64,000 bases of DNA, from contig JACTAT010000200.1 in assembly GCA_014526335.1 (NCBI GenBank), positions 251,777-315,776 on the forward strand. The letters run 5' to 3'. Shown here in pieces: positions 8,665 through 60,150 of this stretch. Source of the stretch: Chrysaora quinquecirrha (lineage: Eukaryota; Cnidaria; Scyphozoa; Semaeostomeae; Pelagiidae). A program made the translations under genes and the position numbers. Each line of letters starts with the position of its first letter. Positions within the stretch are counted from its first letter, which is position 1. The notes under the pieces are model-generated. The model saw only the letters and a program-made list of their open reading frames with translations. It made no database searches and was not told the DNA's origin.

Positions 8665-8969
8665 GGATCTTAATATCTGGGATCTTAATATCTGGGATCT
8701 TAATATCTGGGATCTTAAAATCTGGGATCTTAAAATCTGGGATCTTAATATCTGGGATCTTAATATCTGGGATCTTAATATCTGGGATCTTAAAATCTGG
8801 GATCTTAAAATCTGGGATCTTAATATCTCGGATCTTAATATCTGGGATCTTAAAATCTTGGATCTTAAAATCTGGGATCTTAATATCTGGGATCTTAATA
8901 TCTGGGATCTTAATATCTCGGATCTTGGATCTTGAATCTTGGATCTTGAATCTTAAATTATACCGTCCC
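8665..8969 (-). repeat. Right terminal inverted repeat, minisatellite-expanded
   Basis: It holds about 18 copies of GGATCTTAATATCTG, the reverse complement of the left unit, with AATATC/AAAATC variants. The unique outer end (8920-8969) matches the left end nearly base for base. The array is more than twice as long as the left one, so the two ends have expanded independently. Confidence 0.85.
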
Positions 8970-28378: not shown

Positions 28379-29018
28379 ATAAGCCTTTTTTCAGTTTCTA
28401 GCGCCATTATTGAATAGGTACAAAATTATCCATAATGGCAGATCAGAGCCACAACAAAAAAATTCACAATTTTCAGGCTCGATTTACGGGACTAAATAAC
28501 GATAAGGAAATAAATAGAATATAAATAATAATACACTAGTTATTGTTTTATGTAAATGAAATCCAAAAAGTTGTGAAAATCTGTGTTTTCCTACCGTGAG
28601 ATCTCCAAACTGCTAGGTACCGGATTTAGGCCCATTTCTACTGCCCCTGCAAGAATCACGATTTCTTTCTCCAGGTCGACCAAAACAACGAAGAAACGAC
28701 GTTTTCTGAACCATCTTGAACTGAACTCGCTCTCAAACATGAATTCTTTCAAAATGAGAACATTTCGTGCATGTATTATTAGCGCAAAGTCATCCCCTTT
28801 CTGGGTGGTACGTCACAGGCGTTGAGTCACAAGAAAACCGTGTGCAGAAAGAGGATGACCTCGCGGAAAGCATCTAGAAATCATTTTATTGGTTAGAGAG
28901 ATGGTGAATGCCACTTAAAAGTAATTTTGATTGGTCAATGGAGTCAAGCCCATCCTGTTTGCCTAAAATCTTTTTAACTCTTTTGTTAATGACTCAGAAT
29001 TTCCCTACTTTTCAACCA
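28379..29018 (+). repeat. ISL2EU left terminal inverted repeat
   Basis: It matches the reverse complement of 39313-39935 over its whole length with scattered differences and a small insertion near 28500. It contains a CCAAT-type ATTGGTCAATGG motif. An 80-codon frame (28583-28825) occurs in both copies, but I take it as non-coding. Confidence 0.75.
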
Positions 29019-34394: not shown

Positions 34395-34450
34395 TTTACG
34401 ATGGCCGCTGTCGAAGCTTCTTGTTAGTGTACTCGTGAATTATTCCTTTT

Positions 34451-37151
34451 GTGAAAATGCAAGGCGATAATTGCTCCATCTACGGCTGTCCAGTTTCAAG
34501 AAGATCTCTTTATAAAGGTATCTCGTTATTTAAAGTTCCTTCTGGTGAAGGAAAGTTTGAAACGAATTGGCGAAATAAGCTTGTTGACATAATCACGAAA
34601 GATAGAGTCATCGATGGTCCATTAAGATCGCGAATTAAGAACAAAAAATTGTTTATTTGTCAGAATCATTTTGCTGATGATCAGTATCATCGTCATGACA
34701 GTAAATGCACGTTGAATCCTGGTGCTATTCCAACACTGAATCATCCCATCAAAAGCATCCCCTCATCCCTTTCTGCAGTCAAACCTCGCCAATCAGCAGA
34801 TGCTATCCAAGAGAAGAAATCTTTGCATGCAAGTTTCGAGCCACAAATTGATGAACCAGTTGATTGCTACAAGTCATTTTATGAATTTTCAACTCGGGCA
34901 AAGAATCTCAAGTTAACTGGTTGGGATATATCTGATGATGTTAACAACATTCTTTCTTTCTCTTTTGGTGATCAAATTCATAAGGTACCAAAGTATGAAA
35001 TTCATGTTGAAGAAGATCTTTCCTTTACTGTTCGTATGCTGTTGTGGAGATTTCCAGCTACCCATGACTTCTATACCTCAAATCAACGTTCTGTGAAAAA
35101 TATTACAATTTCAAACTTGATCAAAGCTACAACATCTCTTCAAATTTGTCCTGGTTTACAAAACCAATTTATTGGAGGCTGCATTGAACATTCTGTGCCC
35201 AACTTCTTTTCAGTGAATGACAGTACTGCAGAGAATCCTCTTCATCAAAGCAAATGGTATCGCTCTTCTTCTTGCCTTCTTCTGATTCAAGAACCTCTTG
35301 CAAGATGTGCAGAATGCTTAACTGTCGAATCAAGGGAGAAACTGAGTTTGAAAAGGAAAAGGGACAATTCAAATGTTCCAGCCAAATTAAAAGCTCCCAT
35401 TTCCTTAACATCTTCAGAGCGTGTAAAACTCACACTTCAAAATTACCACCTTGAAAACAAGCAACTGAAAGATGAAGTCCTCAAAATGCGAGAAGAAATT
35501 TCTCAAAATTCTCTTCAAGTTGACTCCAACCTTGGCGATAATTTTATCTCCATCATGTCAGGTGCCAATGCAAGCAAAATTCCTCCTTTCATGAAACTTT
35601 TCTGGGAAGAACAACAAAAGTATCTCTCTTCTTCCAAGACTAATGTTCGTTACCATCCCATGATCATCCGATATTATTTGGGTTTAGCTGCTAAATCTCC
35701 TGCTGTCTATGATGAGATTCGTTTTGATGAAAATACAAACACTGGGTTTGTGGTATTGCCAAGTCGGAGACGTCTCAGGGATTACAAAAATTATATTCGC
35801 CCAAAGCAAGGTTTCAACCAAGATGGAATCAAAGAGTTGTGTGCTATTGTCTCTGAGTTTCAGGACATTGAAAAGTATGGAATCTTGCTACTGGATGAGA
35901 TTAAAATCAAGGAAGATCTTGTTTGGGACAAACATACAGGGGACCTGATTGGTTTTGTTGATTTGGGTGATCCAGAGCTTAATTATGCCACTCTGAAGAA
36001 GTCAAATGAATTAGCATCTCATGTCTTGGTTTTTCTTTTAAGAAGCATTGTCAATCCTCTTAAGTTTTCTTTGGCAAATTTTGCTACAACAAATGCAAGA
36101 TCAACTCAACTCTTCCCATTATTTTGGAAAGCAGTTGGAATTCTTGAAGACAAGTGTGGTGTCAAAGTTGTTCGTGTTACCAGTGATGGTGCATCTGCCA
36201 ACAGCAGTATGTATCGTATGCATTTACATATGACCCGTGTGGAAGACATTAATCATGTAGATGTTGTCTACCGCACACGTAATGTCATGGCTGAGGAAAA
36301 AAGATTTATCTACTATCTTTCTGATCCTCCTCACTTGCTGAAAACTGCACGCAACTGTCTTCGAAACTCTCTTGCAGGATCATGTACCAGAAGTATGTGG
36401 AATAACGGGGATTTTTTGACTTGGAATCACATCTCCAAATTATTTAATGATGATTTGGATTGTGGGTTACATCTTGTTCCTAAACTCACAAATGATCACA
36501 TAAATTTGTCAAGCTTTTCCGTTATGAATGTCAGACTTGCAGCTCAGGTCTTAAGCGAATCAGTGTCACAAGCCCTTCAAACGTTTGGCCCATCTGAAGC
36601 TAGTGCTACTGCTACATACTGCCAGATGTTTGACAAATTTTTCGACTGTCAGAAATACTGCTGAATGCATCCGAAAAGCAAAGCCATTTTTGAAGCCCTA
36701 TGAGTCAGAACATGATGAACGTTTCACATGGTTGACTGACACATTTTTGAAATATCTTTCTGATTGGAAAGATTCAGCTGATGCTCGACCTGGTCAGTAC
36801 TCCGATAACGACAGAGGAAATATGTTTATTTCATGGCAAACCTATGAAGGTATAAAGATCACTGTCCACTCTTCCATCGAACTTGTCCAGTATCTGCTAG
36901 GTCAAGGTGTTCCCTATGTTCTAACAGAAAGATTTTGTCAAGATCCACTGGAAAATTATTTTGGATACCAGAGGTCAAGGGGTCACCGTAAAGACAACCC
37001 ATCACTTTGTGATGTAGGTTACAATGACAACACAATCTGCACAACAAAACTGTTTCGACCAATTGCTAGAAATTGTCGCAATGAAGATCCTCAACTTGCG
37101 AAGATTGATGTGGAAACTGTCCCCTGTCGCCCAAGGAATAAAAAGAAATAA
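34451..37151 (+). pseudogene. THAP P-type transposase (one frameshift)
   Basis: A 737-codon frame and a second frame (36585-37151) join at about 36640, where a run of T suggests a one-base error. Residues 8-100 are a THAP domain (CSIYGC, then NWRNKL, IKNKKLFICQNHF, GAIPTLN). A coiled coil of about 25 residues follows near 335 (NYHLENKQLKDEVLKMREE). The RNase H-like core has GILLDEIKIKEDLVWDK (Asp), GFVDLGDPE, VVRVTSDGASANSSMYRM (Asp) and YLSDPPHLLKTARNCLRNS. The second frame has ERFCQDPLENYFGYQRSRG, holding the C-terminal acidic residues. Length and order match THAP9/P transposases. Only one lesion is visible. Confidence 0.85.
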
Positions 37152-39312: not shown

Positions 39313-39935
39313 TGGTTGAAAAGTAGGGAAAATTCTGAGTCATTAATAAAAGAGTTAAAAAGATTTTACGCAAACAGGATGGGCTTGACTCCATTGACCA
39401 ATCAAAATTACTTTTAAGTGGCATTCACCATCTCTCTAACCAATAAAATGCCTTCTAGACGCATTCCGCGAGGTCATCCTCCTTCTGCACACGGTTTTCT
39501 CGTGACTCAACGCCTGTGACGTACCACCCAGAAAGGGGATGACTTTGCATTAATAATATCTGCACGAAATGGTCTCATTTTGAAAGAATTCATGTTTGAG
39601 AGCGAGTTCAGTTCAAGATGGTTCAGAAAACGTCGTTTCTTTGTTGTTTTGGTCGACCTGGAGAAAGAAATCATGATTCTTGCAGGGGCAGTAGAAATGG
39701 GCCTAAATCCGGTACCTAGCAGTTTGGAGATCTCACGGTAGGAGAACACAGATTTTCACAACTTTTTGGATTTCATTTACATAAAACAATAACTAGTGTA
39801 TTATTATTTATATTCTATTTAGTCCCGTAAATCGAGCCTGAAAGTTGTGAATTTTTTTGTTGTGGCTCAGATCCGCCATTATGGATAATTTTGTACTTAT
39901 TCCATAATGGCGCTAGAAACCGGAAAAAGGCTTAT
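39313..39935 (-). repeat. ISL2EU right terminal inverted repeat
   Basis: Inverted partner of 28379-29018. It ends at 39935 next to the TGAAAAGC direct repeat. Confidence 0.75.
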
Positions 39936-43570: not shown

Positions 43571-43969
43571 TTGGTGATAAATATGGTGACAAATAATGAT
43601 CGAAAGAGGTGGCAACAAGAAAAGAGTGGCTGTGAGAAGCGAAAACAGAAGAAAATGCGAGAATTAAATGAGTCTGGAACGGCAAAAGGTAAAACATCAA
43701 GCTCTATCAAGCTTTTTTTTAACAGAAGACAACGACTAGAACCATCATTAGCAACGCAACTGTTCTTGTCGTGGGTGGAAAGGAAAATTGATAACAACAA
43801 AAGTGGTTCTAACCTTGAGCAAAATCATTGCATATCTGAAATAAATGAAAATCTTTCTTCTTCTGAAGATGATTTTATTCTTGAAGATAAGGATTTAGAG
43901 ACTGCAATTGATATTTCACAGAAATACCCTCCTTTATCAGCCGCAGAATCGTGTTAAAAAGAAGTTACG
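43571..43969 (+). pseudogene. hAT-like gene fragment, part 1 (before palindrome A)
   Basis: A 128-codon basic then acidic frame (DRKRWQQEKSGCEKRKQKKM, LATQLFLSWVERKIDN) ends at TAA after AAESC. The same frame continues KEVT and then, across the 7.76-kb insertion and one target copy, PKLPATATDDYELYKDQ at 51737. The joined protein looks like the N-terminal part of hAT-derived proteins of the C17orf113/KIAA1586 type. That identity is from memory and moderate. Confidence 0.45.
43964..43969. repeat. Target duplication of palindrome A, left
   Basis: GTTACG. The partner at 51731-51736 is GTTAGG (one mismatch). Six bases is the Polinton/Maverick duplication length. Confidence 0.55.
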
Positions 43970-44020
43970 AGTAGGATGCAAGCGCCATGCGGGACTCCAG
44001 GGATGCGGGTCTCAGGACAG

Positions 44021-44061
44021 TGACGTCATCAGTGACGTCATCAGGTCGCGCTATAGCGCGA
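44021..44061 (+). promoter_or_regulatory. Tandem CRE sites and 16-bp palindrome, left end of A
   Basis: TGACGTCA at 44021-44028 and 44033-44040 are perfect CREB/ATF sites 12 bp apart. The perfect palindrome TCGCGCTATAGCGCGA follows at 44046-44061. A second block with CRE and a degenerate palindrome follows at about 44140-44180. The arrangement is mirrored at 51510-51680. Confidence 0.6.
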
Positions 44062-44225
44062 CGGTTTTTATGGATGTTGGTTTCTCCAACCTCGTTTTCA
44101 AGAGTCCCAGATCCTAGCGCACGCGGCTCATACTACCAATAACGTCATCAGTGACGTCATCAGGTCACGCTATAGTACGACGGTTTTACAGAAACCGCTA
44201 GCCTCGTTTCCGATTTAACAATCTA

Positions 44226-44466
44226 GAAGTTTCCAGAATGTTCCAGAACATCTCTAAGAATCCTCTTATCTGATTGGTTAGAACTTTCCAGAAGTTTCCA
44301 GAAGTTTCCAGAATCTGATTGATTAATTATAATGGCATAATAATAATTCGAACGTGACGTTCGAATCGTTTATTAAATAAAATAACATAATAATCCTACA
44401 ATCTGGATAACTAGAACTTTCCAGAAGTTTCCAGAAGTTTCCAGAAAGTTCCACAAGATTCTAGAA
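44226..44466 (+). promoter_or_regulatory. Heat-shock-element arrays, left arm of A
   Basis: Three runs of alternating GAA and TTC at exact 5-bp spacing are present. 44226-44248 has five subsites, 44281-44313 has seven (GAACTTTCCAGAAGTTTCC and so on), and 44414-44466 has about ten with one or two imperfect. This is the HSF consensus nGAAnnTTCn in tandem. CCAAT-type ATTGG motifs lie next to the first and third runs. Confidence 0.6.
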
Positions 44467-45050
44467 ACGAAAATCCTGCAATCTGATTGGTTAATAATTT
44501 AAACATCACGTTCGATCGATCAATCTATAAAATCGAACACACGATCCCAATCGTCTTCCACAATCTAAAAGGAATAGCCTACTATCTCATTGGTTGAAGC
44601 TTATATTAGCATACTTTTATAGAACTATTAGCTGAGACTTGGGAATTGGTACATAGAACAAGTCCATAATGGAGATTCAAAATATATATCTACAATATAA
44701 ACAACCATCAACTGCGCATGCACAGTAGTTATATCAATAACGGTAAGAGCTAGAGGCCTGGGACCTAGCATGTAGAACAAAGAAGTAATAGAGATTTAAA
44801 TGATGTATGTCATATAAACATTTATTAAATAGCGCATGCGCAATAGCAATATCTCTAATAGCTTTTGGTTTAATCCATGGTTTATGAGTATTATCTAAGC
44901 TTATGCAATTCATTGTCCGTATATGGACAGTAGCCGTTGATTTACAACCTTATTTTCAAAGAATGACAACACATGAAAACGACACTATTTTCTAACAGTA
45001 CATTAATGAACAATAATGTAAAAAAATTTTTTAGGTATAGCTAGCTATTT

Positions 45051-45557
45051 CTAGTTATTTCCATAGTATGGGAATAATCGAGTACTAGCATATTGAACTT
45101 CATTCACAGCAGCATCCTCAGAATTACTAGCTTCCTCTTCTTCATCATTCTTTGCTTGACGTATGATGAGATATTTTCTTTTCTCAATAGCATAATCTAA
45201 GGCCTCTTGCATATCCATACCATCTTCCTTCTGTGCTTTTTGCATGGTTGCTATGACTGCAGTCACAACAGCATCATTTTCAAAACTTCTATTATATAAA
45301 AATTTACGCCTGAAGACTTGCAGTATGTTTTCATCTTTATCAACTTCCCTACGCATTGAAGGCCATACATTCCCTAAAGGAAGATCCTCCTCAGTGTTGA
45401 CAGTTTCATCATCATCATGGTCACTTTCAGCTTCTATCTCATCATCATCTGAGTCAGACTCTTCATTACTCTCCTCATGCATCTCTTCTTCATGTCGCTT
45501 AACATTACTTTTAAACTTGGAAGAGAATTCACAATGATCACATTTATACTGATTCAT
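45051..45557 (-). CDS. C2H2 acidic protein of element A (168 aa)
   Basis: The intact frame starts with a C2H2 finger (YKCDHCEFSSKFKSNVKRHE, then EEMH). An acidic Glu/Asp/Ser run of about 40 residues follows. The C-terminal domain has RREVDKDENILQVFRRKFL, AVVTAVIATMQKAQKEDG and EKRKYLIIRQAK, ending FPYYGNN. The function is unknown. A TATA box lies about 75 bp upstream of the ATG (45627-45634). Element B keeps only the last ~28 codons. The right arm of A has a copy with an in-frame 315-bp deletion. Confidence 0.7.
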   Translation of the reverse strand: MNQYKCDHCEFSSKFKSNVKRHEEEMHEESNEESDSDDDEIEAESDHDDDETVNTEEDLPLGNVWPSMRREVDKDENILQVFRRKFLYNRSFENDAVVTAVIATMQKAQKEDGMDMQEALDYAIEKRKYLIIRQAKNDEEEEASNSEDAAVNEVQYASTRLFPYYGNN

Positions 45558-45626
45558 GATTAGCTGTTTACTTATAATTGTCGACTACCTCTTAAATACC
45601 TGAGTCGTAGAGCATAAACTCGCTTG

Positions 45627-45634
45627 AATTTATA
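45627..45634 (-). promoter_or_regulatory. TATA box for element A C2H2 gene, left arm
   Basis: TATAAATT on the minus strand, about 70-77 bp before the ATG at 45557. It is identical in the right arm at 50380-50387. Confidence 0.5.
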
Positions 45635-45699
45635 GACTGGTTCCCCCATTCAATATGATGTGGGAAAGGAATTCCACACTTGCGCAGGAAGGATGTTTC

Positions 45700-47940
45700 C
45701 AATCAAACCATACCTTATCCTTAACTAATCATAATCCTAAGTTATCATTACTTAATCCTCAACAGTCATGAGCTAATCCTTACTGATCCTTAGCTAATCC
45801 TTGGTGATCCTTAGCTAATCCTTACAGATCCTATAGTGATCCTTACTGATCCCCACTCATCCTTACTGATCCTTACTGATCCCTAACTAATCCTTACTGA
45901 TTCTCACTAATCATTACTGATCCTTACTGATCCTTAGCTGATCCTTACTGATCCTTAGCTAATCCTTACTGATCCTTAGCTGATCCTTACTGATCCTTAG
46001 CTAATCCTTAGCTGATCCTTACTGATCCTTAGCTAATCCTTACTGATCCTTAGCTAATCCTTACTGATCATTACTGATCCTTACTGATCCTCACTAATCC
46101 TCACTGATCCTTAGCTGATCCCTAGCTAATCCTTATTGATCCTAACCTAATCCTTACTGATCCTTAACAAATCATTACCTGATCCTCACTAATCATTACT
46201 GATCCTTAACTAATGATTACATGATCCTCACTAATCATTACTGATCCTTGCTGATCCTTACTTATCCTTAACTAATCATTACCTGATCCTAACCTAATCC
46301 TTACTGATCCTTAGCTAATCGTTACTGATTCTTAGCTGATCCTTACTGATCCCTAGCTAATCCTTATTGATCCTAACCTAATCCTTACTGATCCTTAACA
46401 AATCATTACCTGATCCTCACTAATCATTACTGATCCTTAACTAATGATTACATGATCCTCACTAATCATTGCTGATCCTCACTAATCCTTAGCTGATCCT
46501 TACTGATCCTTAGCTGATCCTTAGCTGATCCTCACTGATCCTTACTGATCCTTAACTAATCATTACCTGATCCTCACTAATCCTTACTGATCATTACTGA
46601 TCCTCACTAATCCTCAGATAATCCTTACTGATCCTTGCTGATCATTACTGATCCTTGCTGATCCTTAGCTGATCCTTACTGATCCTTAACAAATCATTAC
46701 TGATCATTACCTGATCCTCACTAATCATCACTGATCCTTAACTAATCATTACCTGATCCTCACTAATCCTTAGCTGATCCTCACTAATCATTACCTGATC
46801 CTCACTAATCCTTAGCTGATCCTTACTGATCCTTACCGATCCTTAACTAATCATTACTGATCCTCACCCTGATCCTCACTAATCCTTACTGATCCTTACT
46901 GATCCTTAACTAATCATTACTGATCCTCACCCTGATCCTCACTAATCATTACTGATCCTTGCTGATCATTACTGATCCTCACTGATCCTTACTGATCCTT
47001 AACTAATCATTACCTGATCCTCACTTATCCTTACTGATCCTCACTAATCATTACCTGATCCTCACTAATCCTTAGCTGATCCTTACTGGTTCTTAACAAA
47101 TCATTACTGATCCTTAGCTGATCCTCACTGATCCTTACTGATCCTTACCGATCCTTAACTAATCATTACTGATCCTCACCCTGATCCTCACTAATCCTTA
47201 CTGATCTTTCACTAATCACTACTGATCCTAACCTAATCATTGCTTAATCATTACTGATCCTGAGCTAATCCTTAGCTAATCCTCACTAATCATTAGCTAA
47301 TCATTACTGATCCTCACCCTGATCCTCACTAATCATTACTGATCCTTACTGATCCTTAGCTAATCCTTACTGATCTTTACTGATCCTCACTAATCATTAG
47401 CTAATCCTTACTGATCCTCACTAATCCTTACTGATCCTTAACTAATCATTACTTGATCCTCACCCTGATCCTTAGCTGATCATTACTGATCCTTGGCTGA
47501 TCCTTGCTGATCATTAGTGATCCTTACTGATCCTTAGCTGATCCTTACTGATCCTTACTGATCCTTAGCTGATCCTTACTGATCATTACTGATCCTTACT
47601 GGTCCTTAGCTGATCATTACTGATCCTTAGCTGATCATTACTGATCCTTAGCTAATCCTTACTGATCTTTCACTAATCACTACTGATCCTAACCTAATCA
47701 TTGCTTAATAATTACTGATCCTCAGCTGATCCTTACTGATTCTTAGCTGATCCTTACTGATCCTTAACTAATCCTTACTGATCCTCAGCTGATCCTTACT
47801 GATCCTTAGCTGATCCTTACTGATCCTCACTCATCCTTACTGATCCTTAGCTTATCCTTACTGATCCTTAGCTGATCCTTACTAATCCTGAGCTGATCCT
47901 TAATGATCCTCACTAATCATTACTTAATCCTTATTGATCC
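45700..47940 (+). repeat. GATC-rich tandem array, left arm of A
   Basis: It consists of about 2.2 kb of degenerate 10-11 bp units of the forms TGATCCTTAC, TGATCCTTAGC, TAATCCTTAC and TAATCATTAC. Higher-order blocks of about 200-300 bp recur (for example 46100-46240 and 46340-46470). There is no coding potential. Confidence 0.85.
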
Positions 47941-48045
47941 TTTCTAACTATTTCACCCAATGAGCAATGTCTTGAATCAGAGATTCTAGAACATTGACAC
48001 TTCATTGGCTCAAATAGTTAGAAAGGATCAGTAAGGATTAAGTAA
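47935..48045. repeat. Centre of palindrome A
   Basis: CCTTTCTAACTATTT (47938 region) and its inverse AAATAGTTAGAAAGG (48018 region) enclose about 65 bp that is itself partly inverted. This is the only non-array DNA between the two arrays and marks the hairpin loop. Confidence 0.75.
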
Positions 48046-50290
48046 TGATCTTTACTGATCCTCACTAATCATTAGCTAATCCTTACTGATCCTCACTAAT
48101 CACAAGGATCAGTAATGATCAGTAAGGATCAGTAAGGATCAGTAAGGATCAGTAATGATCAGTAAGGATCAGCTAAGGATTAGCTAAGGATCAGTAAGGA
48201 TCAGCTGAGGATCAGTAATGATTAGTTAAGGATCAGTAAGGATCAGCTAAGGATCAGTAAGGATCAGCTGAGGATCAGTAATTATTAAGCAATGATTAGG
48301 TTAGGATCAGTAGTGATTAGTGAAAGATCAGTAAGGATTAGCTAAGGATCAGTAATGATCAGCTAAGGATCAGTAATGATCAGCTAAGGATCAGTAAGGA
48401 TCAGTAATGATCAGTAAGGATCAGCTAAGGATCAGTAAGGATCAGCTAAGGATCAGTAAGGATCAGCTAAGGATCAGTAAGGATCACTAATGATCAGCAA
48501 GGATCAGCCAAGGATCAGTAATGATCAGCTAAGGATCAGGGTGAGGATCAGGTAATGATTAGTTAAGGATCAGTAAGGATTAGTGAGGATCAGTAAGGAT
48601 TAGCTAATGATTAGTGAGGATCAGTAAAGATCAGTAAGGATTAGCTAAGGATCAGTAAGGATCAGTAATGATTAGTGAGGATCAGGGTGAGGATCAGTAA
48701 TGATTAGCTAATGATTAGTGAGGATTAGCTAAGGATTAGCTCAGGATCAGTAATGATTAAGCAATGATTAGGTTAGGATCAGTAGTAATTAGTGAAAGAT
48801 CAGTAAGGATTAGTGAGGATCAGGGTGAGGATCAGTAATGATTAGTTAAGGATCGGTAAGGATCAGTAAGGATCAGTGAGGATCAGCTAAGGATCAGTAA
48901 TGATTTGTTAAGGACCAGTAAGGATCAGCTAAGGATTAGTGAGGATCAGGTAATGATTAGTGAGGATCAGTAAGGATTAGTGAGGATCAGGTAATGATTA
49001 GTTAAGGATCAGTAAGGATCAGTGAGGATCAGTAATGATCAGCAAGGATCAGTAATGATTAGTGAGGATCAGGGTGAGGATCAGTAATGATTAGTTAAGG
49101 ATCGGTAAGGATCAGTAAGGATTAGTGAGGATCAGGGTATGGATCAGTAATGATTAGTTAAGGATCGGTAAGGATCAGTAAGGATCAGTAAGGATCAGCT
49201 AAGGATTAGTGAGGATCAGGTAATGATTAGTGAGGATCAGGTAATGATTAGTTAAGGATCAATGATGATTAGTGAGGATCAGGTAATGATCAGTAATGAT
49301 TTGTTAAGGATCAGTAAGGATCAGCTAAGGATCAGCAAGGATCAGTAATGATCAGGAAGGATAAGTAAGGATTAGCTGAGGATTAGTGAGGATCAGTAAT
49401 GATCAGTAAGGATTAGTGAGGATCAGGTAATGATTAGTTAAGGATCAGTAAGGATCAGTGAGGATCAGCTAAGGATCAGCTAAGGATCAGTAAGGATCAG
49501 CTAAGGATTAGTGAGGATCAGTAATGATTAGTGAGGATCATGTAATCATTAGTTAAGGATCAGTAATGATTAGTGAGGATCAGGTAATGATTTGTTAAGG
49601 ATCAGTAAGGATTAGGTTAGGATCAATAAGGATTAGCTAGGGATCAGTAAGGATCAGCTAAGGATCAGTAACGATTAGCTAAGGATCAGTAAGGATTAGG
49701 TTAGGATCAGGTAATGATTAGTTAAGGATCAGCAAGGATCAGTAATGATTAGTGATGATCATGTAATCATTAGTTAAGGATCAGTAATGATTAGTGAGGA
49801 TCAGGTAATGATTTGTTAAGGATCAGTAAGGATTAGGTTAGGATCAATAAGGATTAGCTAGGGATCAGCTAAGGATCAGTAAGGATCAGCTAAGGATCAG
49901 TGAGGATTAGTGAGGATCAGTAAGGATCAGTAATGATCAGTAAGGATTAGCTAAGGATCAGTAAGGATTAGCTAAGGATCAGTAAGGATCAGCTAAGGAT
50001 TAGCTAAGGATCGGTAAGGATCAGCTAAGGATCAGTAAGGATTAGCTAAGGATCAGTAAGGATCAGCTAAGGATCAGTAAGGATCAGTAATGATTAGTGA
50101 GGATGAGTGAGGATCAGTTAGGATTAGTTAGGGATCAGTAAGGATCAGTAAGGATGAGTGGGGATCAGTAAGGATCACTTTAGGATCTGTAAGGATTAGC
50201 TAAGGATCAGCAAGGATTAGCTAAGGATCAGTAAGGATTAGCTCATGATTGTTGAGGATTAAGTAATGATAACTTAGGATTATGATTAGT
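48046..50290 (-). repeat. GATC-rich tandem array, right arm of A
   Basis: It is made of units GGATCAGTAA, GGATCAGCTAA and GGATTAGTGA, the reverse complement of the left array, in a closely similar block order. Confidence 0.85.
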
Positions 50291-50379
50291 TAAGGATAAG
50301 GTATGGTTTGATTGGAAACATCCTTCCTGCGCAAGTGTGGAATTCCTTTCCCACATCATATTGAATGGGGGAACCAGTC

Positions 50380-50387
50380 TATAAATT
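50380..50387 (+). promoter_or_regulatory. TATA box for element A C2H2 gene, right arm
   Basis: TATAAATT, 70-77 bp before the ATG at 50457. Mirror of 45627-45634. Confidence 0.5.
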
Positions 50388-50456
50388 CAAGCGAGTTTAT
50401 GCTCTACGACTCAGGTATTTAAGAGGTAGTCGACAATTATAAGTAAACAGCTAATC

Positions 50457-50648
50457 ATGAATCAGTATAAATGTGATCATTGTGAATTCTCTTCCAAGTT
50501 TAAAAGTAATATTGAGAAAAGAAAATATCTCATCATACGTCAAGCAAAGAATGATGAAGAAGAGGAAGCTAGTAATTCTGAGGATGCTGCTGTGAATGAA
50601 GTTCAATATGCTAGTACTCGATTATTCCCATACTATGGAAATAACTAG
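50457..50648 (+). CDS. Deleted copy of the element A C2H2 protein (63 aa)
   Basis: The first 18 residues and last 45 residues match the left-arm protein, joined after FKSN directly to IEKRKYLII. The lost segment is exactly 315 bp, so the frame is kept. The deletion removes the two histidines of the finger, the acidic run and most of the C-terminal domain. It is expressible in principle from the same TATA box but probably non-functional. Confidence 0.6.
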   Translation: MNQYKCDHCEFSSKFKSNIEKRKYLIIRQAKNDEEEEASNSEDAAVNEVQYASTRLFPYYGNN

Positions 50649-51233
50649 AAATAGCTAGCTATACCTAAAAAATTTTTTTACATTATTGTTCATTAATGTA
50701 TTGTTAGAAAATAGTGTCGTTTTCATGTGTTGTCATTCTTTGAAAATAAGGTTGTAAATCAACGGCTACTGTCCATATACGGACAATGAATTGCATAAGC
50801 TTAGATAATACTCATAAACCATGGATTAAACCAAAAGCTATTAGAGATATTGCTATTGCGCATGCGCTATTTAATAAATGTTTATATGACATACATCATT
50901 TAAATCTCTATTACTTCTTTGTTCTACATGCTAGGTCCCAGGCCTCTAGCTTATACCGTTATTGATATAACTACTGCGCATGCGCAGTTGATGGTTGTTT
51001 ATATTGTAGATATATATTTTGAATCTCCATTATGGACTTGTTCTATGTACCAATTCCCAAGTCTCAGCTAATAGTTCTATAAAAGTATGCTAATATAAGC
51101 TTCAACCAATGAGATAGTAGGCTACTCCTTTTAGATTGTCGAAGACGATTGGGATCGTGTGTTCGATTTTATAGATTGATTGATCGAACGTGATGTTTAA
51201 ATTATTAACCAATCAGATTGCAGGATTTCTCGT

Positions 51234-51475
51234 TTCTAGAATCTTGTGGAACTTTCTGGAAACTTCTGGAAACTTCTGGAAAGTTCTAGTTATCCAGATT
51301 GTAGGATTATTATGTTATTTTATTTAATAAACGATTCGAACGTCGCGTTCGAATTATTATTACGCCATTATAATTAATCAATCAGATTCTGGAAACTTCT
51401 GGAAACTTCTGGAAAGTTCTAACCAATCAGATAAGAGGATTCTTAGAGATGTTCTGGAACATTCTGGAAACTTCT
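51234..51475 (-). promoter_or_regulatory. Heat-shock-element arrays, right arm of A
   Basis: Mirror of 44226-44466, in runs at 51234-51289, 51387-51420 and 51452-51475, with the 5-bp GAA/TTC phasing kept. Confidence 0.6.
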
Positions 51476-51643
51476 AGATTGTTAAATCGGAAACGAGGCT
51501 AGCGGTTTCTGTAAAACCGTCGTACTATAGCGTGACCTGATGACATCACTGATGACGTTATTGGTAGTATGAGCCGCGTGCGCTAGGATCTGGGACTCTT
51601 GAAAACGAGGTTGGAGAAACCAACATCCATAAAAACCGTCGCG

Positions 51644-51679
51644 CTATAGCGCGACCTGATGACGTCACTGATGACGTCA
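51644..51679 (-). promoter_or_regulatory. CRE sites and palindrome, right end of A
   Basis: TGACGTCA at 51660-51667 and 51672-51679, next to a CGCGCTATAGCGCG palindrome. Mirror of 44021-44061. Confidence 0.6.
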
Positions 51680-51736
51680 CTGTCCTGAGACCCGCATCCC
51701 TGGAGTCCTGCATGGCACTTGCATCCTACTGTTAGG

Positions 51737-53487: not shown

Positions 53488-54278
53488 TCTGGTATACCCT
53501 TAAAAATATCCAAATGCGTTTTTGCAAGCCATAAAGTGGACTTTCTATGGTTTGAACTATCCAAAAAGGGCATTCAACCTCAAACACGCTTGACCGATGC
53601 AATTCATTCTTACGAAAGGTCATTAATAAAGAAACAATTAAAAAGGTTTCTGGGCCTTGCAGGATTTTAGCGTGCCTTTATTCAAGATTTTGCCACAATG
53701 AGCCCACCCTTGAACAGTCTTACAAGTGACACAGTTGAGTTTAAATGGTCTGATGACTGTGAAAATGCATTCAAGCGATTGAAAGATGAACTGTCATCAG
53801 AGCCTGTTTCACAATTCCCGAAACTCAACCAACCCTTTGTCATAGAAGTTGATGCCAGTGACCTTGCAGTTGGTGGTGTTCCGTCTCAAATGGGCCCTGA
53901 CGATAAGTCCCACCCTGTTGCTTATTTCTCTACAGCTCTACAGAAATCTCAACGAAATTAGTCGGCAAAAGACAAAGAAGCATATGCTCTGGTCACTGCA
54001 GTCAGGCATTGGCATGTATACCTTGCTGGAACACAATTTCTTTTGAACTCTGATCACAACCCCTTGACCCACCTTCAGAATAAAAAAATCCCCTTGGCAA
54101 AATTGGACGCTGGTTATCCGAATTAGAAGAGTGCGATTATGAAATAAAGTATATACAAGGCAAAGAAAATGTGAAAGCTGACGCTTTATTCTGAACCACC
54201 GGTGCCTCTGACGTTCAACCAAATACTGATTTCGAGCACAAAATCTAGGCAAAGTTCACAGACAATGATAATTTTCAG
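53488..54278 (+). pseudogene. Gypsy 1 pol: RT end and RNase H
   Basis: LKISKCVFASHKVDFLWFEL and LKRFLGLAGF end the RT. The RNase H domain follows with FVIEVDASDLAVGGVPSQ and KSHPVAYFSTALQKSQRN. After a TAG come KDKEAYALVTAVRHWHVYLA and FLLNSDHNPLTHLQNK. The tail (IKYIQGKENVKADAL) is in a shifted frame. Gypsy resumes at 58783 beyond element B. Confidence 0.7.
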
Positions 54279-54649
54279 ACGAAGTTGTTGTTAAATTATT
54301 TTCAAACATCTCTTGGGTATTCTAGAATTATTAATAATGTACTGATAGGCATCTTGAGTAGGTGGGAGGTAGATGTACGAGTCCAGTTGTAGGCTTACTA
54401 GCACACTGGTGTCCGAGCGCAGTGAGGTCATCAGGTTGTGCTTTAGTGTGACGGTTTTTATGGATCTAGCATGCTGGTTTCTGCAACCTCAAGAGTTCCT
54501 GACTCCAGTGACATCATCAATGGGTCTCCAAGCACAGTGACGTCATCAGCTCGCGCTATAGTGCGGTGGTTTTTAAGATCTTGTCTGAAACCAATGGCCT
54601 CGTTTCCGATTTAACAACATTTGCAATCGGTTTGACTCTACAAGTTTCC

Positions 54650-54760
54650 AGAATGTTGCAGAAGATCTAAGAAACGGGAAAAACCTGCAATCTGATTCGT
54701 TAGAACTTTCTATAAGTTTCCAGAATGCTCCAGAAGATTCTAGAAACAAGAAATCCTACA
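54650..54760 (+). promoter_or_regulatory. Heat-shock-like elements in B left arm
   Basis: AAGTTTCCAGAATGTTGCAG (near 54642) and GAACTTTCTATAAGTTTCC, followed by AGAATGCTCCAGAAGATTCTAGAA (given as motif blocks at 54710-54747), keep the GAA/TTC 5-bp phase with more mismatches than in A. They precede the coding frame at 54870. Confidence 0.45.
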
Positions 54761-54869
54761 ATCTGATTGGTTAATAATTCGAACGTAGGGTTTGAATCGT
54801 TTATGAAAATCGAAGCGGAATAAGTTAGAAATTAATCATGAAAGAGAAGTAGTCAAGAAGCGGGTTCTC

Positions 54870-55516
54870 AATCAACTTCATCAAAGAAGAGAACTCGATT
54901 TTCTTGCGATGTTTGTCAGAAACACCTCAGCACAAGAATCAAAATGAGATGCCACATGATGTCTATACATTCAACTCCATCAATTATATTAACTTCTCAA
55001 ATTATATGTTGTGGAAAGTATTTACAACTACCTACATACATCAAAAACAAGCAAGCCGTCATCAATATTGAAAACAGAGACGATAAATGCTTCATTTGGG
55101 TAATCCTATCCGCCCTACATCCACCAGCAACAAACCCACAAAGAGTTGCAAAGTATTATCCATACACGGATGAACTTAATTGTGAAGGATTATCATATCC
55201 AGTAAAAGCAGACGATGAAAAGATGATTGATACATTTGAAATAAACAACAACATTTCAATCAACATCCATACAGATGAAGATGGCGAAATTGAACCAGTA
55301 AGAATAACTAAAGTTCATCATGAAAAACAAGTGCATTTGCTATTGGTATTCAATGAGGATGGCGAGAGTCACTATTGTTGGATAAAGGACTTTAGTCGTC
55401 TTTTCGCAGGTCGTGATGGCCACAAGTATCATGGAAAGCGGTTTTATTGTCCTCTATGCTGTTCGGGATGTACAACTCAAGAAAGATTGGAAAAGCATAA
55501 AAAGTTATGTAAATAA
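54870..55516 (+). CDS. C2H2 / Polinton-polymerase-N-terminal-like protein, left arm of B
   Basis: The frame opens near 54850. FSCDVCQKHLSTRIKMRCHM with SIH forms a C2H2 finger. Then come NKQAVINIENRDDKCFIWVI, SALHPPATNPQRVAKYYPY and ELNCEGLSYPVKADDEKMID, followed by a C-terminal zinc cluster ending LEKHKKLC. This order resembles the N-terminal region of large Polinton/adintovirus-type polymerase proteins. Only this part is present. No ATG lies in register before the finger, and M residues within it (54944) are the first. The function of the region is unknown. Confidence 0.55.
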
Positions 55517-55519
55517 AAG

Positions 55520-55984
55520 ACACGTTTTAATTTCTCCGAAACATTTTAGTACTACTTGTTTGAATACCAACATTAGAATATCTTTAAATTGTTTTAAAGT
55601 TGTAAAAATTTAGATTGTTGTAAGTTCTATAGAAATTGTTAAAACTCAATTAATGAAAATGAAGTTGGGGATTTACAAGATTTTTATATCTATTTAAAAA
55701 CTATAAAAGAATATACCAACAGATTAACAATTAGTATAATAAAAGAAGCGCATTCCTAAGTTGGCCTTTGGGGGAAATACAGAGGACCTTAATCCATGGT
55801 TTATAATACCCTTATATCATTTATATGTAAATATTATCTAAACATTACAATATATTGCCTATATACTCTATAGATAATAGCAATTTATTTATGGCATCGT
55901 TTTCAAAGAATGTTCACACAGAAACAAGGTTTTATTTCTAACAGACACCTAATGAAGAATAATTTCTAAACATTTTTTAGGTAT
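55520..55984. other. B interior, shared with element A
   Basis: Non-coding. From about 55790 it matches the region outside the C2H2 gene of element A (44865-45050), including TAATCCATGGTTTAT and the TTTTTTAGGTATAGC block. Confidence 0.5.
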
Positions 55985-56083
55985 AGCTATTTCTAGTTAT
56001 TTCCATAGTATTGGAATAATTGAGTACTAACATATTCAACTTCTTTCACACCAGCATCCTCAGAATTACTAGCCTGCGTGCAG
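55985..56083 (-). pseudogene. Remnant of element A C2H2 acidic protein in B
   Basis: The minus strand reads ASNSEDAGVKEVEYVSTQLF and QYYGNN, the last 28 or so codons of the element A protein with several changes. Upstream codons are missing at a breakpoint at about 56084. Confidence 0.65.
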
Positions 56084-57535
56084 CCTCAACTGATCTAACT
56101 GGAAAAGTAGAGTCTGCGCAACAATGAACGAAAGCTTGTACGGGCCTCTTTTTCAAACGAACCCAAGCGGTAAATCTTTTGTATGTCTATTGTTTACTAA
56201 CCAATCAGCTCCGGTTGGCAAAAAACTGCCAACCAGAGCTTATTGGTCAAATGCTAATTTCATTGTTTTAATATAATCGCGCCACGTAGACACGGCTGGT
56301 TTGCGTCACTCGATCACTTTCTTTGCCAAAACAAAATGGCGAATGTGTGCTTGGTTGCTGCACGAAAATGTTTGTTGGAGTAAAGGTGGTTTACCAGAGA
56401 TCTACCTTACGAAAAGCACTATTTTGATCAATTGAAGCCATGGCAAGAATAGAAACAAGCACGACATGGATTTTCCAAAGCGAGTTGTTTATTTCTGGGC
56501 ATCTAGACTAGATAGTAGTCTAGCCTATACTCCTCTTACTTGGTTTATCAGAAGAGGGTGCACCCAGTGTCCCTGTGCACAACAAAGAACAAAAAATACA
56601 GATAGTAAGATTTAACTTGACTTGTCTTGTCTGGTAGATTACATGCATTTAACTTAATCAATATAAGTAATTACAATACCTCGTCAAATAAATTTTCCAT
56701 GTTAAAAAGTAGCCCTAACAGCTGTGATGTTAGTTATGTATAGGCAGTTTATGAAGGATTTACTACCAGTAAATGTTTGTGCCTTGTAGGCACACATTTT
56801 TGAAAGTTTATGCTGTTTTTATTTCCTTTGAATGTAAGTCTTTCTTCAGAAACTAGAATCATTCACTCAACCATTTAAATCTTTGCAATCAATCTAGGGC
56901 AGCAAAAATCCTAATATTTTTGTCACCTTCCCAAAGCTGTCTTGTTTCAATGTTTACAAACTGAAAACATGAAGTGTTGATACTAATAATGTGACATCCA
57001 TAATTATTGTCAGATTATTTTTCAGTGCTATTTAAGAGAAAAGAACACCAACTTCACCTTTTAAGATATGGTGAACAGTTTGCAAGCCATCCTTAACTTT
57101 GCACCTTATTTATCCGTGCCTTGGTTTAGTTTTATGGTTTAATTAAATGTACATTCACTCAGTATTTGGTCATTAAAATTAAATCTAAAAACTGAAACTG
57201 GTAGCAAATGACAAAGCTTGCTTGTGGATTAGGTGAAGGCAGTACTGGTATCAACCAAAAAGCAGAAAAATGTCTGTCAAATCAAATCTATGAGAAGACC
57301 CATAGCCTACAATATTGACAAACTTTTTTGAAGTTACTAACTATCAAAACACCAGAAAAATCCTTGTAATACACTGCAAAAATTCATGGCACTTTCATCA
57401 AAAAATTATAAACCAAAGACAAAAATCACAGTTAATTGAAGAATAACTGGGACTGAGATGGATGCATATTTTGAATCTAATGAATACTGTAAGTCAAGTA
57501 GGTACCAAAAAAAGTTCAAACTCTACATTTCAAGC
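56084..57535. other. Non-palindromic interior of B
   Basis: I recognise no gene. It contains the 56200-56247 hairpin. The sequence is unrelated to element A as far as I can see and may be a separate insertion or flanking DNA trapped between the arms. Confidence 0.35.
56200..56247. repeat. 21-bp hairpin
   Basis: ACCAATCAGCTCCGGTTGGC and its near-perfect inverse are separated by AAAAAC. The stem is long and G/C-richer than its surroundings. It could be a MITE end or an RNA hairpin. Confidence 0.45.
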
Positions 57536-57538
57536 CTT

Positions 57539-58200
57539 TTATTTACATAACTTTTTATGCTTTTCCAGTCTTTCTTGAGTTGTACATCCCGAACAGCACA
57601 GAGGACAGTAAAAACTAAAACGCTTTCCCTGATACTTGTGGCCATCACGACCTGCGAAAAGACGACTAAAGTCCTTTATCCAACAATCGTGACTCTCGCC
57701 ATCCTAATTGAATACCAATTGCAAATGCACATGTTTTTCACGATGAACTTTAGTTATTCTTACTGGTTCAATTTCGCCATCTTCATCCGTATGGATGTTG
57801 ATTGAAATGTTGTTGTTTATTTCAAATGTATCAATCATCTTTTCATCGTCTGCTTTTACTGGATATGATAATCCTTCACAATTAAGTTCATCCGAGTATG
57901 GGTAATACTTTGCAACTCTTTGTGGGTTTGTTGCTGGTGGATGTAGGGCGGATAGGATTACACAAATGAAGCATTTATCGTCTCTGTTTTCAATATTGAT
58001 GACGGCTTGCTTGTTTTTGATGTATGTAGGTAGTTGTAAATACTTTCCACAACGTATAATTTGAGAAGTTAACATAATTGATGGAGTTGAATGTATAGAC
58101 ATCATGTGGCATCTCATTTTTATTCTTGTGCTGATTGGTTTCTGACAAACATCGCAAGAAAATCGAGTTCTCTTCTTTGATGAAGTTAATTGAAAACCGG
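57539..58200 (-). pseudogene. C2H2 / Polinton-polymerase-N-terminal-like protein, right arm of B
   Basis: Inverted copy of 54870-55516. It has the same finger (CDVCQKPISTRIKMRCH) and the same NKQAVINIENRDD core. A TAG after LQLVFN (57704) interrupts it, then DGESHDCWIKDFSRLFAG and the C-terminal zinc cluster follow. It has fewer indels near the start than the left copy. Confidence 0.55.
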
Positions 58201-58782
58201 CTTCTTGACTACTTCTCTTTTCATGATTAATTTCTAACTAATTCCGCTTCGATTTTCATAAACGATTCGAACGCTACCTTCGAATTATTAACCAATCAGA
58301 TTGTAGGATTTCTCGTTTCTAGAATCTTCTGGAGCATTCTGGCAACTTCTAGAAAGTTCTAACTAAACAGATAGCAGGTTTTCTCGTTTCTAGGATCTTC
58401 TGGAACATTCTGGAAACTTGTCGAGTCAAAATGATTGCAAATGTTGTTAAATCGGAAACGAGGCTATCAGTTTCAGAGAAGATCTTAAAAACCACCGCAC
58501 TATAGCGCGAGCTGATGACGTCACTGTGCTTGGAGACCAATTGATGACGTCACTGGAGTCGGGGACTCTTGAGGTTGCAGAAACCAGCATGCTAGATCCA
58601 TAAAAACCGTCACACTATAGCACGACCTGATGACGTCACTGCGCTCGGACACCAGTGTGCTAGTAAGCCTGCAACTGGACTTGTACATCTCCCTCCCACC
58701 TACCCAAGATGCCTATCAGTACGTTATCAATAATTCTAGAATACCCAAGAGACGTTTGAAAATAATTTAACAACAACTTCGT

Positions 58783-60150
58783 ATCAAAAATGGGTTATTA
58801 AGTAAATCAAGGCCCCTGTGATCCCACCATCATTAAAGAAATTAATTCTGTGTGAGTACGATGATATCGCACATTTTGGAGCGGACAAGTTATATGCATT
58901 ATTGAAGGATCGATTTTATTGGCCAAATATGTTCAGCTAAATCAAGTCATTCGCATTGGCTTGTGATACATGTCAAAGGACAAAATGTGACACTTGGCCT
59001 CCTAAAGATCCCATTGTCAAAATGTACATCCCTAGTGCGCCTATGCAATTTATTTCCATAGATATTGCATATTTGCCATAAGACATTAGAGCTGATCAAT
59101 ATGTTTTACTTATTGGTGACATTTTCTCAAAGCTTATTTCCGCTGTTCCGTTAAAGGATCAGACAGCTCCAGTTATAGTCGAAGCAATATTGAACCATCG
59201 GATCTATATCCATGGCGCACCTTATCATCTACTATCCAACCAAGGCTCGAATGATGATGGGAAACTCATGCACGAGATCTGCAACACGTTAGGAATTGAA
59301 AAGAGATGCTTCAGCCTACCATAGCCAAGGTAACAGCAATGCGAACGCAATTTATATACTATCAAGGAAATGATTAGAGCTGTGTTACTCCATCGTCGTT
59401 TCCCACAGTCACAATGGAGAAAACTTTTACCGAATTTAGTGTTTGCACCAGCCCAAGCAAAACAATGAAATGCGTACCCTATGACGTAGTATTCGGAAGA
59501 TCAGCTACCTTGCCGCAGGATATTGTTTTTCAAGATGTGTCGAAAGACAAATTAGAACAACCTCTTTCTGCAGGTGATTACGAGCACACTATTTCGTCTT
59601 CTTTAAACAAAATTTTCAATCAAGTACTGGAAACGTTGGAATTGAACAAACTCACAATGCGAAAACACTACAATCGCAATACATTTGTTATGGATTACCA
59701 ATTAGGACAGAAAGTATGGCTAAAAACTAAGTATTATAAGACGGGTGAGAATAAAAAAATAGCACCTTGAAGGACTATTCTACAACAGTTACCGAATGGA
59801 GTAAACTTCAAGATTTGAAGTTGAATAACGAAAAGAAAGTGGTTCACCATGATCCGTTATTGCCCGTCATAGCTAATGATGATGAATCATCCGCAGAAGT
59901 TTCAGACAATTCTTTTGTTCCTCAAGATCTAGAAAACGACAATGCGATTTCGTCGGACACAAGCTCATTCTTGGAAAGTGATTTAAAAGGAGCCGAAGAT
60001 GACAGCGTTGATTCGGAACCCGAAATGATAGACATGCCTTTACGGAGATGTTACCCGAGACGAGATAGACAAGCATGTTACCCGAGACGAGATAGACAAG
60101 CAAGACATCTCCCTGGAGCTATCTATCCCTATGAACACTTTCGCTGATTA
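58783..60150 (+). pseudogene. Gypsy 1 integrase
   Basis: IAHFGADKLYALLKDRFYWP and CDTCQRTKCD form the H2C2 zinc region. The core has FISIDIAYLP (Asp), a shifted LLSNQGSNDDGK (normally SDQGS, second Asp changed to Asn), and IKEMIRAVLLHRRFPQSQW. The frame at 59414-59770 holds KCVPYDVVFGRSATLPQDIV. The last frame (59767-60147) is an acidic tail ending in a duplicated PRRDRQA block. Many stops are present. Confidence 0.7.

Follow-up and report, generated by a model that had tools for sequence, protein, structure and literature searches.

Introduction

Protein-primed linear replicons can yield inverted dimers of one of their ends, as is known from the defective palindromic genomes of adenovirus and from the hairpin and inverted-dimer forms of the linear yeast plasmid pGKL1. 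Among integrated elements, long inverted arms holding internal repeats are typical of the fold-back element (FB) of Drosophila, and the target duplications measure 9 bp for FB and 7 bp for Galileo. The latter is likewise described as having long inverted arms that contain internal repeats (PMC3573991). Polintons, also termed Mavericks, feature a protein-primed DNA polymerase (PolB) and a DDE integrase according to a review (PMC6431247). For intact vertebrate Mavericks, another study reports terminal inverted repeats (TIRs) of 46-1,447 bp and 6-bp duplications, as well as the end motifs (AG)3 or (AGT)2, which are linked there to jumping-back replication (PMC8097293). A direct demonstration of the Polinton replication mode was not found in these literature passages, and none of the listed titles and abstract openings of open-licence papers, those on protein-primed palindromes included, dealt with palindromic Polintons, which is weak evidence of absence. 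Here, a 64,000-nucleotide stretch of the genome of the jellyfish Chrysaora quinquecirrha (the whole of it being called the window) is analysed with regard to a 7.8-kb near-perfect inverted repeat at positions 43970-51730, the window element. The best reading is that of a palindromic satellite belonging to a Polinton lineage whose PolB-bearing ends are unusually long and which has given rise to several palindromic forms. In particular, we consider it probable that the window element is a non-autonomous, fully palindromic Polinton/Maverick satellite with a zinc-finger gene of its own, formed by fold-back and integrated in trans.

Structure of the window element

As a sequence-only reading of the window had claimed, the element is a palindrome, with only a small asymmetric centre between its arms. 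The outer arms (43970-45189 and, inverted, 50510-51730) are 98.9% identical over 1,221 bp and the inner arrays 98.5% over 2,092 aligned positions, and the alignment of both arms shows 57 mismatches in 4,218 columns, gaps being included among the columns; the main gaps comprise 315 bp in the gene of the right arm and 165 bp at the centre. Each arm starts with a Polinton-type TIR (left, 43970-44540, plus strand; right, 51160-51730, minus strand), and the termini read AGTAGGATGC, in line with the AG termini described before. Further inward, a tandem array of the 10-bp unit ATCCTTACTG takes up 2.1 kb in either arm (left, 45776-47942, plus; right, 48104-50238, minus), and the asymmetric centre with a small loop between TTTCTAACTATTT and AAATAGTTAGAAA lies at 47943-48103.

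The element is flanked on the plus strand by GTTACG (43964-43969) on the left and GTTAGG (51731-51736) on the right. The proposed 6-bp target repeat is corroborated in its length by these flanks and by duplications across the family, whereas the two window copies agree at five of six bases only. Insert and duplication amount to 7,767 bp, a multiple of three, which places the host flanks in one frame. Judged from these window flanks, with no search for an empty paralogue, the suggestion that a host frame rejoins on removal of the element holds for the shared frame; nevertheless, a TAA at 43955-43957 closes the left host frame 12 nt before the insertion, and it is the same frame in which the right flank continues.

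The sole stop-to-stop frame of more than 130 aa in the window element encodes a C2H2 zinc-finger protein of 168 aa (left arm, 45051-45557 including the stop codon, minus strand). A TATA-like box, TATAAAT, can be read from the sequence at 45628-45634 on the same strand, 71 nt upstream of the ATG, where the sequence-only reading had placed a TATA box. A gene in each arm, as had been assumed as well, is present in full length only on the left, the right copy (50457-50648, plus strand) having undergone an in-frame internal deletion of 315 bp. No polymerase or integrase is encoded, as stated earlier; since a Polinton is expected to encode both PolB and integrase, the window element is classed as a non-autonomous Polinton derivative and not as a Polinton.

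A mobile family in the genome

The genome searched comprises 328 Mb in 740 contigs. Within it, AGTAGGATGC occurs 228 times compared to 108 times for the reversed control, and a BLAST search with the left arm yielded 66 matches, 40 of the 1,081 candidates having been scored; a large share of the matches lie in pairs. Arm-to-arm alignment of 14 pairs (13 distinct) resulted in 95.7-99.8% identity. A 32-mer arm marker was found at 85 genomic sites, all of which were listed, and a control pattern at none. Altogether 68 of these sites form 34 convergent pairs with a spacing of 1.0-10.3 kb (median 4.9 kb), the other 17 being unpaired; direct or divergent marker pairs within 15 kb were absent, as all 34 neighbour pairs are convergent. 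The contigs C441 and C478, to which the comparison for duplicate contigs was confined, showed no difference in two comparisons of 4,525 and 4,425 bp, and hence at most 33 pairs represent distinct insertions.

Target duplications were assessed for 15 elements with both ends (12 of the zinc-finger family and three PolB elements), a sample that takes in only part of the 34 marker pairs: C441 was left out as the same locus as C478, C246 and C105 because of truncated ends, and C124, C319, C257c, C739, C196 and C146s because only one end was at hand. Nine elements feature an exact 6-bp duplication, four (the window copy included) agree at five of six bases and two have none; for the zinc-finger family alone, the respective numbers are six, four and two of 12. 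Cross-paired flanks, serving as control, reached at least five of six bases in 3 of 210 cases. Moreover, the flank match fraction was 0.86 at 6 bp versus 0.24-0.38 at 4, 5, 7 and 8 bp, which does not correspond to the 7-bp duplication of Galileo. The ends are equally uniform, with AGTAGG at the start of 27 out of 28 and AGAAGG at the remaining one. The mobility ascribed to the window element from its sequence is thus borne out by the 34 convergent arm pairs (one of them on a duplicated contig) and the 6-bp duplications, and the objection that no other copies might exist fails, as the genome search revealed many. At C246 (L030/L037), which has a truncated left end, a direct repeat of about 49 bp, its two copies differing at one position, was noticed by eye in the host flanks on either side.

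PolB-bearing partner elements

Matches to PF03175 (25 in the genome, with 91 of 227 candidates scored) in combination with the end pattern led to the first partner element, and the end pattern led to two more. The three were picked since their ends pair in the end-pattern list, and they accordingly form a non-random sample: a 13.0-kb palindrome (C212:355704-368726) whose arms both contain PolB sequence and agree at 99.5% over 6.2 kb, an 18.3-kb element (C235:1350509-1368769) with inverted ends of about 4.5-4.9 kb and PolB in both, and a 9.7-kb PolB palindrome (C105:12937-22636). All three show AGTAGG ends (AGTAGGATGC) and exact 6-bp duplications (3/3). An element with PolB in both of its long TIRs and whole PolB palindromes coexist in this genome.

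The polymerase was identified by PF03175 (E 3.4e-22) in the frame of the 13.0-kb palindrome (L054:2254-3894). To this frame, that of the 18.3-kb element is 97.8% identical over 547 aa and that of the 9.7-kb element 91.2% over 543 aa; hmmscan returned no PF03175 for the latter two frames, though both align to the former. The 18.3-kb element additionally encodes a putative integrase (L056:8517-9269) with an rve match (E 1.9e-6; 28.5 bits at a cut-off of 32.6) and a Chromo match (7e-9), and a putative packaging ATPase (L056:7306-8022) with a Pox_A32 match above the cut-off (E 1.1e-6). On account of this chromodomain integrase and the A32-type ATPase, which are accompanied by a weak adenovirus-type protease match, it is called a Polinton here.

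Public protein collections abound in relatives of this PolB (E<=1e-5 for 7,924 of 8,000 candidates; best identity 74%), and a PolB 32-mer has 170 copies in the genome. Among the 100 of these copies that were listed, neighbours within 25 kb are convergent in nine cases, direct in four and divergent in one. Seven of the nine listed convergent pairs are spaced 11.2-11.5 kb apart (C129, C186, two each on C235 and C290, and C320) and probably represent Polintons in which both long TIRs carry PolB. One of the seven was read from end to end in the assembly and three others were covered at the PolB locus (L047, L048, L051), the presence of PolB in both ends of the remaining six being inferred from the spacing. 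For the other copies among the 100, the list contains no convergent partner, and elements that are broken or have a single PolB may therefore be in the majority. Besides, five equally oriented PolB copies lie in C285:178981-224186, and three of the distances from one copy to the next measure about 6.0-6.3 kb; tandem Polinton units are a possible explanation.

Ends shared with Polintons

In the terminal 570 bp or so of the window arms, pieces of at least 100 bp match, at 82-94% identity, the termini of elements with PolB and integrase which have AGTAGG ends and 6-bp duplications, and the Polinton-like ends noticed earlier are thereby confirmed. The window element has its type of end and of duplication in common with an autonomous-type partner in the same genome. 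In the TIR alignment, the 13-kb PolB palindrome comes closer to the zinc-finger element C257a, with 92.6% identity, than to the 18-kb Polinton, neither end of which exceeds 83%; this suggests that zinc-finger and PolB elements share and exchange ends.

The two TIRs of one element are 97.6-100% alike in 12 of 14 elements, and the best match of a TIR to any other element does not exceed 93.8% with one exception, in that the TIR of the 9.7-kb element and the left TIR of the 18-kb Polinton are 100% identical over 560 bp. The TIR pair of the 18-kb Polinton itself scored 61.7%, its left end carrying an extra 350 bp or thereabouts. In a TIR tree, from which the right TIR of this Polinton was omitted, left and right TIRs are identical (three elements), strongly supported sisters (seven) or weaker sisters (two), which makes 12 of 13 elements. 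The core shows a mean identity of 98.6% between arms of different elements (35 arms, duplicate contig included). With TIRs that differ by at least 6% between nearly all elements, the ends turn over faster than the core, yet they stay alike within an element.

Palindrome centres and probable fold-back traces

The centre of the 9.7-kb element is colinear with the PolB sequence up to L056:4784 and then proceeds on the opposite strand from 4373, with a 411-nt loop and at most 2 nt of microhomology at the junction. This is what would be left by fold-back or by switching to the opposite strand. The arms of this element are 92.5% identical over 3 kb as against 98.1% in the outer 1.5 kb, and the divergence of the right arm suggests two parents.

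With regard to the zinc-finger elements, one centre loop, as found at 47943-48103 of the window, is common to C192, C257b, C739, C196 and partly C324b. Centre slices of C91, C386, C257a, C324a and C246 did not show this loop; some of these slices may not cover the centre, and that of C91 is of another kind. Array comparisons of C324a, C324b, C386 and C196 were not used, as their slices may overrun unequal centres. A supposed flip of the centre loop was dropped, since in a palindrome it merely mirrors the orientation of the insertion.

Predicted stress-type sites in the terminal repeats

The motif TGACGTCA, which we take to be a cAMP-response element (CRE), occurs in one to four copies within the first 560 bp of all 28 arms of 14 elements; likewise, overlapping three-unit GAA/TTC motifs, presumably heat-shock elements, amount to 7-20 in the same region of 25 out of 28 arms. 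All of these are predicted sites. No heat-shock motif occurs in the first 560 bp of three arms, two of which belong to the 9.7-kb element and one, the left, to the 18-kb Polinton; the latter arm contains 11 such motifs within L056:310-1290. In the left TIR of the window element, CRE sites are located at 44021, 44033 and 44152, followed by 14 overlapping heat-shock motifs in three clusters (44226-44451, plus strand). A second inverted element of the window (54272-58789) has only one CRE and one heat-shock motif, and the rest of the window (49,189 bp) two CRE and no heat-shock motifs. Among 2,000 Markov shuffles of the left TIR, at most one CRE and two heat-shock motifs were obtained, bearing in mind that the heat-shock counts overlap within short tandem repeats and are thus non-independent. 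The TIRs may accordingly act as promoters with CRE and heat-shock-element arrays.

The zinc-finger gene

Four close relatives of the 168-aa protein, with 73-96% identity, retain the whole frame, and more distant ones share the C2H2 finger, an acidic linker and the C-terminal region around EALDYAIEKRKYLI. Within this genome, a frame of at least 160 aa was found in 9 of 35 arms, with the duplicate contig C441 contained in both numbers and the cut-short cores C192_R and C439_L scored as not intact. The variants in those nine arms include 8 synonymous and 15 non-synonymous ones (ratio of non-synonymous to synonymous polymorphism, pN/pS, 0.41; P 0.04), which is weak evidence of selection; the conservation of the frame in the relatives elsewhere offers better support. 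A frameshift shared by 15 of the 35 arms ends the frame at 96-97 aa and is either real or a sequencing error. The gene may be an accessory gene of the satellite's own. Scans of viral contigs with the zinc-finger protein, the PolB piece and a zinc-finger alignment confirmed no relative, and the best match in PHROGs reached only E 0.037. An AlphaFold model of the zinc-finger protein (pLDDT 51) was not taken to a fold search, and the frame L058:5079-8294, when compared with PDB sequences, had no more than weak matches to zinc-finger and ribosomal entries.

Other features of the window

The second, related inverted element (54272-58789) consists of arms at 54272-55519 and 57536-58789, which are 94.7% identical and each contain a piece resembling the N-terminal part of a PolB gene; in between, positions 55900-56073 are 84% identical to the core of the zinc-finger element. 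It sits, as judged by eye, in an apparent Gypsy-type retroelement, and its inverted repeat runs 86 bp past an internal AGTAGG. A further inverted pair (28379-29018 and 39313-39935) shows 93.4% identity over 641 bp. The region 34439-37148 comprises two frames, the first of which has predicted THAP and TNP-like transposase domains, and is probably a P-type DNA transposon. Additionally, tandem arrays of 15-bp units are situated at 1084-1202 and 8665-8926; their units resemble each other but lie on opposite strands, and several reading frames are open through them.

Origin of the palindrome and alternative explanations

Starting from the pairing, ends, duplications and PolB partners observed in the assembly, the following course of replication and integration is proposed. 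A Polinton-type PolB would start at the shared ends and replicate by strand displacement. At a site close to chance, the nascent or displaced strand might fold back or switch to the opposite strand and then copy its own arm, resulting in a molecule that carries one end twice. As both ends of such a molecule would be good integrase substrates, the Polinton integrase could insert it in trans under formation of a 6-bp duplication. A displaced strand of the palindrome would moreover form a single long hairpin, in which copying or mismatch repair could keep the arms near-identical. The hairpin replication suggested by the sequence-only reading gains from the PolB palindromes, from one fold-back junction and from the TIR tree, where 12 of 13 elements have sister or identical TIRs, whereas the hairpin intermediate itself is inferred.

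Several observations weigh against this satellite reading. No hairpin or extrachromosomal form was observed, the material being a genome assembly only, and host gene conversion could likewise keep the arms alike. Two elements, C146 and C91, have no target duplication; the bootstrap of the TIR tree is unsettled, with C91 unresolved. Concerning the centres, that of the 13-kb palindrome jumps from L056:6808 to 7092, which is no simple fold-back and needs an extra deletion or strand switch, and the 92.5% arm identity of the 9.7-kb element suits a switch between two lineages better than a pure self-fold-back. The zinc-finger gene was not found in the two pieces spanning the 18-kb Polinton, the protease match of this Polinton is below the cut-off (Peptidase_C5, E 0.011, L057:4322-4723), and Pfam gave no capsid family for the other centre frames, for which no structure search was made. 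Furthermore, the arm cores of C105, C91 and C146 (L033/L031, L032/L038 and L016/L018) match arms of other elements equally well or better than each other; therefore, the arms would not be re-copied, and homogenisation would be incomplete, at every cycle. The mixing of these cores suggests a possible exchange of arms between elements.

The last point speaks at the same time for another account, according to which the palindrome arose by chance on a single occasion in an otherwise ordinary non-autonomous derivative of Polintons, and its arms were kept alike by host gene conversion after insertion, without hairpin replication. A centre loop common to several copies agrees with it as well, since the palindrome would not need to form anew in each cycle. 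PolB palindromes of differing extent (13 kb and 9.7 kb) and the second inverted element in the window nevertheless imply that formation recurs, and TIRs are alike within an element though at least 6% apart between nearly all elements, which renders such a single origin unlikely, albeit worth serious attention. For the near-identity of the arms, mismatch repair in a hairpin is favoured over host gene conversion because palindromes arise repeatedly in this lineage. An unrelated classical foldback transposon (FB, Galileo/P, Mutator-like or similar) with tandem repeats in its arms would account for long inverted arms with 10-bp arrays, which resemble those of Drosophila FB; 6-bp duplications, AGTAGG ends and the homology of the ends to PolB/integrase elements make it highly improbable. 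Even less credence is given to an assembly or library artefact in which snap-back reads were built into a palindrome. Giant palindromes are a known class of artefact, and this assembly does hold a duplicated locus (C441/C478, identical where compared), but distinct flanks with 6-bp duplications at many loci, differences between the arms such as the 315-bp deletion, and 34 paired sites with one known duplicate contradict it.

Beyond the satellite reading preferred for the window element, it may tentatively be asked whether this Polinton lineage now lives for the most part through self-complementary forms, with PolB-in-both-TIR elements, palindromes and parasitic gene-bearing satellites. Snap-back replication would then both make satellites and proofread the arms, and heat-shock and CREB sites would tie the burst to host stress; we hold this wider scenario at somewhat less than even confidence. 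A family recording fold-back events in its sequence would offer datable evidence on a step of Polinton replication. It would be a gene-bearing satellite that depends on an endogenous virus-like element, and an instance of palindrome formation that is productive and no dead end. Besides, the stress-type sites in the ends render induction testable.

Comparison with known systems

The likeness to Polintons/Mavericks comprises the AG-type ends, the 6-bp duplications and an 18.3-kb relative with PolB, a chromodomain rve integrase and an A32-type ATPase. In contrast to them, the TIRs described here either extend to about 4.5-4.9 kb with PolB in both or make up whole-element palindromes, and the window element features neither PolB nor integrase. 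With FB and Galileo, it has the long inverted arms holding internal repeats in common, whereas these belong to another superfamily, differ in the length of the target duplication and have no Polinton-type ends. The palindromes of adenovirus and pGKL1 are extrachromosomal by-products; those of the jellyfish, by comparison, are integrated with target duplications and amplified as families.

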